This document shows positions 30,170 to 34,399 of a DNA stretch of 64,000 bases, piece after piece. The notes under the pieces were generated by a model. The model was not told where the DNA came from. It searched no databases and saw nothing but the letters and a program-made list of their open reading frames with translations. The position numbers and the translations under genes are program-made. The stretch covers positions 62,001 to 126,000 of the forward strand of contig NZ_RCCC01000001.1 of assembly GCF_003663825.1 (NCBI RefSeq), in the 5' to 3' direction. The DNA comes from Acidovorax sp. 106 (lineage in GTDB: Bacteria > Pseudomonadota > Gammaproteobacteria > Burkholderiales > Burkholderiaceae_C). Numbering within the stretch: position 1 is the stretch's first letter; the number at the start of each line of letters is the position of its first letter.

Positions 30170-30769
30170 TCAAGCAGGAGTACCGCCAGGGGCATTCTCC
30201 GCTGCAGGCTTTGCAGCAGCAGGCTTTTTCTTACCAGGGGCAATCATCATGATCATCTGGCGGCCTTCCAACTTGGGAAACTGCTCGACGAGGATGGAGT
30301 CTGCCAACTCATCACGGATACGGTTGAGCAGAGCCAAACCGAGTTCCTGATGGGTGATTTCGCGCCCGCGGAAACGCAAGGTGATCTTGCACTTGTCACC
30401 ATCCGCCAAAAAGCGACGAATGTTGCGCATCTTGATGTTGTAGTCGCCATCGTCCGTACCGGGACGGAACTTGACTTCCTTGATCTCGATGACCGTCTGC
30501 TTGGCCTTGGCTTCAGCAGCGCGTTTTTGCTCCTGATACTTGAACTTACCGTAGTCCATCAGGCGGCACACCGGGGGATTGGCTGTAGCAGCAATCTCCA
30601 CCAGATCCACATCCAGTTCGCCCGCCATGCGCAAGGCTTCCATCAAACTCACCACACCCAAAGGCTCGTTCTCAGGCCCAGAGAGACGAACTTCTGGGGC
30701 CATGATTTCACGGTTCAGGCGGTGTTTGCGCTCTTCACGGTGGCGACGATCACGAAATTCAGTAGCGAT
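30170..30769 (-). CDS. infC: Translation initiation factor IF-3, AUC start codon
   Basis: About 199 residues. IF-3 blocks subunit joining and proofreads the start codon. An internal ATG at 30703 begins at MAPEVRLSG, but conserved IF-3 sequence continues upstream ([16 protein letters not shown], compare RINGEIRAQEVRL in E. coli). The frame reaches ATC at 30769 with AAGGAA eight bases upstream and no ATG, GTG or TTG available, so AUC is the likely start, matching the AUU start used by E. coli infC for self-regulation. C-terminal half has the usual FRGREITHQ and [16 protein letters not shown] 21-residue Ala/Pro-rich tail ends the protein. Confidence 0.93.
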
Positions 30770-30854: not shown

Positions 30855-32774
30855 TCAGGCTTTGTCAGCAATGTCTTTGGCGATGAGTTCGATGAACGCA
30901 TCCACAGACATTACACCGAGGTCACGATTGCCTCGGGCGCGCACTGCGACGGCTCCTGCCGCCTTTTCCTTGTCACCCGCGACGAGGATGTAGGGCAGCT
31001 TCTGCAACGAATGCTCACGTATTTTATACGTAATCTTCTCGTTGCGCAGGTCCACTGCCACTCTAAGGCCTTGATTGGGCAGCGCTTTTTGCAGTTTTGC
31101 TGCAATTTCACGACAGTAATCGGCTTGAGAGTCGGTGATATTGAGCACCGAAACCTGCACTGGCGCGAGCCAAGTGGGCAACGCACCAGAGTGCTGCTCG
31201 ATCAAGATGCCAATAAAGCGCTCCAGACTGCCCACGATAGCGCGGTGCAGCATGATGGGCCGGTGGCGTGCGCCGTCCTCACCCACAAACTCCGCATCCA
31301 GGCGCTCGGGCAGGTTGGGGTCCACCTGGATCGTGCCGCATTGCCACGGGCGACCCAACGCGTCCTTCAGCGTGTATTCGATTTTGGGACCATAGAACGC
31401 GCCTTCGCCCGGCAGGTATTCAAAATCGCAGCCTGACGCGCGCAAGCCGTCGGCCAAAGCCTGCTCGGCACGATCCCAGCTTTCTTCGGAGCCAATGCGT
31501 TTTTCTGGGCGGGTGGACAGCTTGTAAATGATGTCCGAAAAGCCAAAGTCCTTGTAGACCTTTTGCAGCAACCGGGTGAACGCCACCACTTCAGACTGGA
31601 TTTGATCTTCAGTACAGAAAATGTGCCCATCGTCTTGTGTGAAAGCGCGCACACGCATGATGCCGTGCAACCCTCCCGTGGGTTCGTTGCGGTGGCATTG
31701 GCCAAACTCGCCAAACCGCAGCGGCAGGTCGCGGTAGCTCTTGATGCCCTGCTTGAAAATGATGATGTGCCCAGGGCAGTTCATCGGCTTGAGCGCGTAA
31801 TCGCGCTTTTCCGACTCCGTCACGAACATGTTTTCGCGGTACTTGTCCCAGTGCCCGGTTTTCTCCCACAGGCTCTGGTCAAGGATTTGCGGGCCTTTGA
31901 CTTCTTGGTAGCCATTGTCACGGTACACGCGGCGCATGTACTGCTCCACCTCTTGCCACACCGTCCAGCCCTTGGGGTGCCAAAACACCGTACCGGGCGA
32001 GTGCTCGTCGATGTGGAACAGATCCAACTCACGCCCCAGCTTGCGGTGATCACGCTTTTCAGCCTCTTCCAGCATCGTGAGGTACTGCTGCAAATCATCC
32101 TTGGACGCCCAGGCGGTGCCATACACGCGCTGCAGCATTTCGTTGCGATGATCGCCGCGCCAATAAGCGCCCGCCACCTTCATGAGCTTGAAGAACTTCA
32201 GTTTGCCGGTGCTGGGCACGTGAGGGCCACGGCACAGGTCTTCAAAATCACCCTCTCGGTACAGACTCACATCTTCATTGCTGGGGATGCTGGCAATGAT
32301 CTCTGCCTTGTAGTGCTCGCCCAGGCCCTTGAAATAAGCCACAGCCTCGTCGCGCGGCAGCACCCGACGCACCACCGGCTCGTCTTTGGCGACCAATTCG
32401 GCCATGCGCTTTTCGATCGCCACCAAGTCCTCTGGCGTGAAGGGGCGCTTGTAGGCAAAGTCGTAATAAAAGCCGTTTTCGATCACCGGACCAATGGTCA
32501 CCTGCGCATCAGGAAACAGCTGCTTGACCGCATAAGCCAGCAAGTGCGCGGTCGAGTGGCGAATGACCTCCAGGCCATCGGCATCCTTGGCGGTCACGAT
32601 GGACAAGGGGCTGTCTGCCGTGATCTGGTAGCTGGTGTCCACCACCTTCTCGCCAATCTTGCCCGCCAGTGCCGCTTTGGCCAAGCCAGTGCCGATCGAT
32701 GCAGCGACTTCAGCCACCGTGACCGGGCCAGGAAATTCGCGCTGCGAGCCATCAGGGAGCGTAATGTGAATCAT
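30855..32774 (-). CDS. thrS: Threonyl-tRNA synthetase
   Basis: 639 residues (E. coli 642). TGS domain at 1-65 ([20 protein letters not shown]), editing domain with [15 protein letters not shown], class II catalytic core with zinc ligands in [10 protein letters not shown] and later His, motif 3 region [20 protein letters not shown], and a C-terminal anticodon domain. It charges tRNA-Thr and removes mischarged Ser. The ATG at 32774 gives the standard N terminus, with only GGA upstream as ribosome site. The 5' leader encodes a Thr-rich peptide and an intrinsic terminator, so thrS appears to be under threonine attenuation. infC follows 85 bp downstream. Confidence 0.97.
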
Positions 32775-32833
32775 GGGGATGTCCATAAAGATAAGAGGCA
32801 GCGGGCAGCAAAGGCCCACGAAAAATTCAAAAC

Positions 32834-32862
32834 AAAAAAGCGCGGAACCGGCCGCGCTTTTT
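32834..32862 (-). terminator. Intrinsic terminator (attenuator) in the thrS leader
   Basis: On the minus strand, AAAAAGCGCGG (32862-32852) pairs with CCGCGCTTTTT, an 11-bp stem with a 6-nt loop and a run of six T. It ends 59 bases before the thrS start and after the thrS promoter region, so it terminates leader RNA, not the upstream aceA mRNA, which has its own terminator at 33017-33041. Confidence 0.85.
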
Positions 32863-32946
32863 GGAGGGGAGAGTGCATCTCGTACAGGCGCGAACGGCCA
32901 GCCACTAGTGGCCGGTAAGGATCTCCGTCGTAGTTCGCGGTGTCAT
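32850..32946 (-). promoter_or_regulatory. Threonine attenuator of thrS (alternative RNA stems)
   Basis: Segment 1 CGCGAAC (32939-32933, inside the leader frame) can pair with segment 2 GTTCGCG (32895-32889). Segment 2 with its flank, GGCCGTTCGCGC (32899-32888), can instead pair with segment 3 GCGCGGCC (32857-32850) through a TT bulge; segment 3 is the 5' arm of the terminator. A ribosome stalled on the three consecutive Thr codons would cover segment 1, free segment 2 and prevent the terminator. This is the same logic as the trp and his leaders. All pairings are read from the sequence; operation is inference. Confidence 0.8.
32905..32946 (-). CDS. Threonine-rich leader peptide of thrS
   Basis: Thirteen codons, [13 protein letters not shown], followed by TAG. 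Five of 13 residues are Thr, with ACT-ACG-ACG in a row at codons 5-7. AAAGG lies ten bases upstream. The frame ends 43 bases before the attenuator stem. It has no function as a protein; its role would be to let the ribosome sense charged tRNA-Thr. It is far too short for routine gene calling. Confidence 0.8.
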
Positions 32947-32989
32947 AACCAGGATGCCTTTCTCGCTCTTGTGAATCAATCTTGCTGAT

Positions 32990-32995
32990 ATTTTA
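32990..32995 (-). promoter_or_regulatory. Possible -10 box of the thrS promoter
   Basis: TAAAAT on the minus strand, about 44 bases upstream of the leader ATG, giving a short untranslated region of about 37 nt. No convincing -35 is seen 16-18 bp upstream. Confidence 0.4.
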
Positions 32996-33016
32996 ACCAT
33001 CCCTTGCCAGCAGACA

Positions 33017-33041
33017 GAAAAAAGCCCGGGCATGCCCGGGC
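33017..33041 (-). terminator. Intrinsic terminator of aceA
   Basis: The palindrome GCCCGGGCATGCCCGGGC at 33024-33041 is followed on the minus strand by six T, starting 27 bases after the aceA stop. Confidence 0.9.
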
Positions 33042-33067
33042 TCAGATAGCGCGACCAGCCGCGCAGA

Positions 33068-34399
33068 TCAGTGGAACTGCTCTTCTTCGGTCGAACCCGA
33101 CAGGGCCTTCACGGAGGACGAGCCGCCTTGGATCACCGTGGTCACGTCGTCGAAGTAGCCTGCGCCCACTTCTTGTTGGTGCGACACGAAGGTGTAGCCC
33201 TTTTCGCGTGCTGCAAATTCAGGCTCTTGCACCATTTCGGTGTAATGCTTCATGCCTTCGCCGTTGGCGTATGCATGGGCGAACTGGAAAGTGTTGTACC
33301 AGTTGATGTGGATGCCAGCCAGCGTGATGAACTGGTACTTGTAGCCCAGGGCCGACAGGTCTTCCTGGAAAGAAGCGATCTGCTTGTCGTTGAGGTTCTT
33401 CTTCCAGTTGAACGAGGGCGAGCAGTTGTACGACAGCAGCTTGCCAGGGCAGGCAGCGTGCACGGCTTGCGCAAATTCGCGGGCGAAGCCGATGTCGGGA
33501 ACGCCAGTTTCGCACCACACCAGATCGGCGTAGGGGGCGTAGGCCACACCCCGACTAATCGCTTGTTCCAGGCCGTTCTTCACGCGGTAGAAGCCTTCTT
33601 GCGTGCGCTCGCCGGTCAGGAAAGGCTTGTCGTTGGCGTCGTGGTCGGACGTGATCAGGTTGGCAGCTTCTGCATCGGTGCGGGCCAGCACGATGGTGGA
33701 CACACCCATCACGTCAGCCGCAAAACGTGCAGCGATCAGCTTTTCGCAGGCCTCTTGAGTTGGCACCAGCACCTTGCCGCCCATGTGGCCACACTTCTTC
33801 ACGGCAGCCAGTTGGTCTTCGAAGTGCACGCCAGCAGCGCCCGACTGGATCATGTTCTTCATCAACTCGAAGGCGTTCAGCACGCCGCCGAAACCGGCTT
33901 CAGCATCCGCCACGATGGGCAGGAAGTAGTCGATGAACTCCTTGTCACCGGGGTTGATGCCACGGCCCCACTGGATTTCGTCAGCGCGCTTGAAGGTGTT
34001 GTTGATGCGGCGAACCATGGTGGGCACCGAGTCATAGGCGTACAACGACTGGTCGGGGTACATGGTTTCGGAGGTATTGCCATCGGCGGCGACTTGCCAG
34101 CCCGACAGGTACACGGCTTCGAGGCCCGCCTTGGCTTGCTGCATGGCTTGACCAGCAGAGATGGCGCCGAACGCGTTCACATAGCCCTTCTTGGCACCGC
34201 CGTTGATCTTGTCCCACAGTTTTTCAGCACCACGCTTGGCCAGGGTGTACTCAATGGGCAGCGAGCCACGCAGACGCACCACGTCGGCAGCGGAGTAACC
34301 GCGCTTCACACCCTTCCAGCGGGGGTTGGTCGCCCAGTCTTTTTCCAGGGCGGCAATTTGCTGTTCGCGGCTCAGTTGTTCGTTGAGGGATTGAGGCAT
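33068..34399 (-). CDS. aceA: Isocitrate lyase
   Basis: 443 residues; splits isocitrate into succinate and glyoxylate in the glyoxylate shunt, needed for growth on acetate and fatty acids. The active-site loop KKCGHMGGK holds catalytic Cys203; [20 protein letters not shown] and [13 protein letters not shown] are diagnostic. AGGAG lies eight bases before the ATG. No malate synthase gene is adjacent. The 270-bp upstream region is unusually AT-rich and holds several inverted repeats, suggesting dedicated regulation. Confidence 0.97.

Follow-up and report, generated by a model that had tools for sequence, protein, structure and literature searches.

A probable threonine-sensing transcription attenuator upstream of thrS in Acidovorax sp. 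106 and related bacteria

Described attenuators and the thrS leader

Leader-peptide attenuation is used by the trp, his and thr operons and by E. coli pheST; E. coli thrS is governed by translational autorepression, in which ThrRS binds a tRNA-like leader. We analyzed a leader upstream of thrS in a 64,000-nucleotide stretch of Acidovorax sp. 106 DNA (hereafter the window). As with E. coli pheM (pheST) and thrL (thr operon), stalling at its cognate codons would lead to an antiterminator, but here the Thr codons serve a synthetase in another order, form a run of three and not eight, and start with a conserved and rare CGA-ACT. With the E. coli thrS operator this leader has its target gene in common and would share the sensing of the tRNA-Thr/ThrRS state, but that operator works by protein binding and a block of translation, not by a leader peptide and a terminator. 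We consider that the element is probably a ribosome-mediated, threonine-sensing transcription attenuator of thrS (probability about 0.83), a reading derived from sequences and folding models and directly supported by anatomy, conservation, the matching of partner segments 2:3 and 3:4 (numbered as in Table 1), and a bias in folding. If this is true, an essential synthetase would be controlled via charged tRNA-Thr sensed by translation of a leader, unlike E. coli thrS, and the control would possibly extend to the genes for IF3, L35, L20 and PheRS that lie behind thrS. The many relatives that lost the leader but kept a terminator, together with the rare-codon block, would then make rules of attenuator evolution testable.

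In PMC8632094, attenuation was proposed from sequence for the uORFC-8-2 motif 5' of cysS in Rhodobacterales. By its description, the thrS leader also combines a synthetase gene, a short and conserved frame that begins with AUG and holds cognate codons, and an intrinsic terminator, but uORFC-8-2 has Cys codons, precedes cysS and belongs to alphaproteobacteria (PMC8632094). A Thr-containing leader peptide, thrL, was likewise proposed before thrS of Streptomyces lividans TK24; it differs in its 18 residues with two Thr, its leaderless transcript and a peptide unlike MTPRTTT, and its authors call termination unclear (PMC8079986). PMC1183508 mentions eight ACC codons in the E. coli thr leader and discusses codon choice in leaders. 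PMC2965389 mentions E. coli ThrRS; the term thrS is absent from its text, as it is from the texts of PMC4833913, PMC4176332 and PMC2864571. We conclude that this type of attenuator is known and that its occurrence at thrS in this group is new to the literature searched. No thrS leader-peptide attenuator was recognized for this group among the papers listed there, at most 20 per search, and an earlier prediction is possible in Lopatovskaya et al. 2010 (Mol Biol 44:128), which reportedly treats synthetase attenuation.

Leader anatomy and predicted pairing

The elements of the earlier note were found on the minus strand of the window at the stated positions (Table 1), and the gene order on that strand is aceA, aceA terminator, leader, terminator, thrS, infC, rpmI, rplT, pheS, pheT. 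The 13-codon frame runs from an ATG at 32946-32944 to a TAG at 32907-32905 and contains five Thr codons (ACA, ACT, ACG, ACG, ACC), with the ACT-ACG-ACG run present as codons 5-7. Its ATG and Shine-Dalgarno site are both conserved in alignment A1 and constitute a predicted ribosome-binding site ahead of thrS; no consensus sigma-70 site was called within 32700-33150 of the window. A terminator does lie between the leader stop and thrS, as had been claimed, with an energy of -15.8 kcal/mol and a distance of about 60 nt to thrS, whose ATG is at 32774 and whose product is 96% identical to an Acidovorax delafieldii protein. The alternative pairings 1:2, 2:3 and 3:4 also exist in the window; segment 1 complements GTTCGCG (32895-32889), and 2:3 forms only with a bulge or mismatch. 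Taken alone, the fold of the window is unexceptional (z -1.45, with 18 of 200 shuffles equally good), and it is because of its conservation in relatives, not because of this fold, that the leader goes beyond chance. Further downstream, infC seemingly starts with an ATC at 30767-30769 (minus strand), reading ATEFRDRR, and the list of open reading frames begins at an internal ATG at 30703; rare start codons are common among infC genes.

Table 1. Features of the thrS leader region, in window coordinates
Feature	Position	Strand	Basis or remark
aceA's own terminator	33043-33022	minus	
-10-like box TAAAAT, probable thrS promoter, 5' of leader frame	32990..32995	minus	sequence reading; similarly placed boxes in several relatives
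Shine-Dalgarno AGAAAGG, 10 nt 5' of leader ATG	32957..32963	minus	GAAAGG almost unchanged across alignment A1 (28 rows)
Near-invariant 21-nt block GGTTATGACACCGCGAACTAC	32930..32950	minus	third codon positions conserved too
Leader frame, 13 codons + TAG	32905..32946	minus	MTPRT(T)n or nnRTTT in relatives
Segment 1, CGCGAAC	32933..32939	minus	pairs with segment 2; swap-test support weak
Segment 2, GGCCGTTCGCGC, 5' half of putative antiterminator	32888..32899	minus	2:3 pairing
Segment 3, GCGCGGCC, terminator 5' arm and loop edge	32850..32857	minus	sequence; pairing calculations
Intrinsic terminator (3:4), 11-bp stem + U-run	32835..32862	minus	GCGCGG...CCGCGC conserved in A1
thrS, threonyl-tRNA synthetase	30855..32774	minus	gene and downstream genes named from translations

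In the mechanism that we propose, RNA polymerase would start 5' of the leader, and a ribosome would initiate behind it at the leader's Shine-Dalgarno site and ATG. With ample charged tRNA-Thr the ribosome would reach the stop codon and cover the 5' part of segment 2, whereupon segment 3 would pair with segment 4 and transcription would end before thrS. With charged tRNA-Thr scarce, the ribosome would halt at Thr codons 5-7 and leave segment 2 free to pair with segment 3, no terminator would form, and thrS would be transcribed, perhaps with the genes behind it. We infer the position of the promoter, the stalling of the ribosome, termination and the response to threonine; the ribosome-binding site with its short frame, the repeated Thr codons and the terminator are present in the sequence, and a 2:3 antiterminator that excludes the terminator and is favored on stalling was obtained by computation.

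To compare the two ribosome positions, we folded 47 leaders, using the free RNA as far as the terminator loop, with the ribosomal A-site set either at the second Thr after Arg (stalled) or at the stop codon (finished). These were the 48 aligned leaders described below less L017, which lacks a credible terminator and was dropped from the folding and swap sets; L031, whose terminator is probably mis-assigned, stayed in the folding, swap and opening-cost sets. The terminator 5' arm was sequestered with a probability of 0.815 in the stalled state and 0.560 in the finished state, a difference of 0.255 compared with 0.024 +/- 0.032 in shuffles, and this difference exceeded 0.1 in 37 of the 47 leaders and fell below -0.1 in one. 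Freeing the same arm cost on average 7.78 kcal/mol with the ribosome stalled and 3.79 kcal/mol with it at the stop codon. The difference of 3.98 kcal/mol, as opposed to -0.02 +/- 0.35 when the sequence from the stop codon to the terminator was shuffled, reached 1 kcal or more in 38 of the 47 leaders, and its mean was positive at footprints of 10, 13 and 16 nt (2.00, 3.98 and 4.72, respectively). Stalling as against completion thus shifted the predicted access to the terminator in the direction that had been expected. For the window itself, the opening cost at stall and stop was 11.5 vs 7.3 kcal/mol (13-nt footprint) and 11.8 vs 4.5 (16 nt), with no difference at 10 nt (11.5 vs 11.6 kcal/mol), and at 13 nt its sequestered probability dropped merely from 0.98 to 0.92. 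Folding without a ribosome did not depart from shuffles (0.727 vs 0.747).

When each segment's own partner was compared with partners swapped among loci, the own pair was better for 3:4 (z -10.4) and for 2:3 (z -6.0), and the 1:2 stem gave a swap z of -2.2 (325 of 20000 permutations equally good) and a shuffle z of -5.3, all of which overstate certainty because close relatives among the loci are not independent. Support that the earlier note had hoped to see in all three stems was obtained for 2:3 and 3:4, but weakly for 1:2. The ribosome-free pre-terminator RNA of the window favors 2:3 over 1:2. In an RNAalifold analysis of 28 leaders, both partners had changed in three base pairs of the terminator, and a 4-bp hairpin, YGGU[UAUGAC]ACCG, was predicted around the ATG, in which no pair had changed on both sides.

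Conservation and distribution

Leaders were chosen by eye from the listed small frames at 80 named thrS loci, the best 80 of 582 stretches matched in one scan of genome contigs; one was accepted at 47 of these 80, giving 48 leaders with the window. In this set of 48 (window plus best 80 of 582), Thr occupied the second and third codons after Arg in 32 and 29 leaders, respectively, with all four third bases used, and the retention of Thr with free third bases suggested selection on the amino acid. The conservation of Thr codons that had been anticipated was borne out to this extent, but 13 of the 48 leaders have no more than two Thr in any five residues, and the part most strictly conserved is the nucleotide block, not the Thr run. 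In the same set 45 rows contain Arg-Thr, and 44 of them write its Arg as CGA (the exception, L025, has CGG), the codon after the Arg position begins with AC in all 48 leaders and has T as its third base in 38, and each position of GGTT, ATG and ACACCG is kept in 38-44 of the 48 rows. Six CDS of the window contain 173 Arg codons, two of them CGA, and 119 Thr codons, of which 12 are ACT. In the wide sample described below, CGA was present in all 26 regions holding 25 hand-picked Arg-Thr peptides (20 with CGA-ACT and 6 with CGA-ACG; L152, whose first Arg-Thr is CGT-ACT, was omitted from this count), despite peptides as different as MSFRTTTT, MFKRTTTT, MQLNRTTTT and MRTTTTHP. Leaders lacking a Thr run still keep MTPRT. 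The leader of G049, from the window's family, reads MTPRTQEITLPAF, and that of G058 reads MTPRTFPSLI.

On a ThrRS tree of 81 rows (the window and the best 80 of 582 loci), 35 rows reach three or more Thr in five residues, 13 have no more than two and 33 lack an accepted leader, and leaders are present on either side of the root. A terminator without Thr codons, which the earlier note had named as evidence against its reading, was encountered in a large minority: of the 33 loci without an accepted leader among the best 80 of 582, 21 carry a hairpin resembling a terminator no more than 130 nt from thrS (L007, L012, L015, L019, L026, L030, L041 and 14 further loci). The tree labels are partly wrong in this respect, with seven rows labelled 'hairpin only' and 14 of the 26 rows labelled 'none' having a hairpin on recount (hence 21 of 33); with these labels, the seven 'hairpin only' rows were scattered over the tree, and parsimony with four labels required 30 changes, compared with 38.6 when shuffled. 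The pattern fits an old leader with many losses but depends on these partly wrong labels. Several of the leaderless hairpins sit shortly after a promoter-like box; in L007, L019 and L041 this is a TAAAAT box, with the hairpin 26-27 nt on. L014 appears to be a decaying leader that keeps the block but has ATA in place of ATG and no longer has Thr codons following CGA.

The wide sample comprised 120 genomes of the order, 118 of them with a ThrRS match, and yielded 117 upstream regions, of which 114 are first copies in 114 genomes; G060, G073 and G089 (incomplete matches) and G026 (overlooked) fall outside this set. Thr-rich small frames (7-30 residues, up to 220 nt 5' of thrS, at least three Thr in five residues, no hand-picking) were found in 29 of the 114 regions as against 1.6 +/- 1.2 in shuffles (z 22.9), although L135 and L144 among the 29 are read-through of a tRNA gene and L157, L213 and L227 look unrelated. 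TTT runs occurred in 18 of the 114 regions, in 0-2 in each of ten shuffles and in none on the reverse strand. Val (29/114, z 10.1) and Phe (15/114, z 6.5) were in excess as well, for which we tentatively hold responsible a tRNA gene that closely precedes thrS in many genomes and the T-run of the terminator; the reverse-strand counts for Thr (26/114) and Pro (46/114) may likewise stem from the upstream tRNA gene. Leaders from distant families include MSFRTTTTGTLNQG, MFKRTTTTRISR, MQLNRTTTTS and MRTTTTHP. Hairpins resembling a terminator, no more than 130 nt from thrS, were present in 83 of the 114 regions, far above the number with Thr-rich frames; the hairpin is therefore not tied to the leader, which, with the leaderless loci above, counts against the attenuator reading.

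A covariance model, R1, was built from 28 of the 48 leaders. At E < 5e-8 its matches lay directly 5' of thrS in all 18 genomes for which the position of thrS is known (14 further genomes stand outside this count). In the next seven genomes above that value, the best match preceded thrS in one and lay elsewhere in six, and because of these six we rejected the R1 tally of 100 of 200 genomes as a census. The window's own genome has four R1 matches, of which the thrS leader scores 3.0e-38 and one other 2.4e-4.

Alternative readings and related elements

Attenuation could also operate with the CGA-ACT block, and not the Thr run, as the sensor, further Thr codons merely raising the gain. Slow decoding of the rare CGA and then ACT, or an RNA structure or factor acting at the block, would in that case position the ribosome relative to RNA polymerase. 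The strictness of CGA and ACT among the 48 leaders, the rarity of CGA in the window's CDS, its persistence in the wide sample beneath varied peptides and the MTPRT of run-less leaders all argue for this, but the block overlaps segment 1, and its conservation could in part be due to the 1:2 stem, and the Thr codons that follow it are themselves enriched. We regard a block sensor as possible but on balance doubtful. A broader proposal, to which we give similarly tentative credence, is that an ancient thrS regulator of this betaproteobacterial order, with the fixed 21-nt CGA-ACT block as its sensor, has repeatedly been lost, leaving bare hairpins that act by other means.

Readings without a leader-peptide attenuator are much harder to reconcile with the data. 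Repression by ThrRS of its own mRNA through a tRNA-like leader, as at E. coli thrS, with the terminator incidental, would suit the identical target gene and the hairpin predicted around the leader ATG; around that hairpin, however, no stem with an NGU anticodon loop is visible by eye, what is conserved is a terminator and a frame of its own, and no Rfam family reached the gathering score, so that we think this quite unlikely. A tRNA anticodon mimic around CTGGTTA was considered as a candidate and dropped, there being no stem by eye. Slightly less likely still is a terminator that merely ends a transcript from upstream (aceA or a tRNA gene) beside a Thr frame arisen by chance. The hairpins at leaderless loci and throughout the wide sample, and the tRNA gene upstream in some genomes, are what it would predict, but aceA has a terminator of its own (Table 1), and neither the enrichment of Thr nor the strong folding tests agree with a chance frame. 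Moreover, the terminator ends no more than 30 nt 5' of thrS in 18 of 47 leaders from the best 80 of 582 loci plus the window (one of them, L031, with a probably mis-assigned hairpin), which leaves hardly any space for a promoter 3' of the terminator. Direct sensing of uncharged tRNA-Thr by a T-box riboswitch we consider extremely improbable. The conserved block contains ACCGCG, also part of the T-box sequence, and a synthetase gene and a terminator are at hand; against this, cmscan of the window, with matches allowed up to E 5, gave none to the T-box, just 26 of 48 leaders (best 80 of 582 plus the window) have T as the base preceding GG, and the leader occupies the space of a long specifier stem. 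The Rfam search of the window leader returned nothing at the gathering score, and when matches up to E 5 were admitted these were weak ones to sRNAs (for example ncS025 over the leader, E 2.1); at 14 of the best 80 of 582 loci it returned tRNAs only.

Beyond the order, the comparison covered 40 regions in other orders of the class, from the best 40 among 52 genomes with a match; two of these regions have Thr-rich frames, and one of the two, L250, is tRNA read-through. In L253 (genome G211, another order), an MSTTTAQR frame followed by a hairpin lies 5' of thrS and is possibly of independent origin. In a subgroup of leaders (L132, L134, L175, L188, L190, L192, L196 and L197), Arg-Thr is followed by Cys instead of a second Thr (CGA-ACT/ACG-TGC/TGT). 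L228 (G032) and L230 (G077) carry a different, longer frame ending in TTTTTTSTAT, some 90-170 nt 5' of a second copy of thrS and followed by segments with alternative pairings (in L228, GGCTACCT, GGAGGTAGCC and GGCTGCCTCC); judged by its sequence, this element looks like a separate threonine attenuator for the thrS paralogue.
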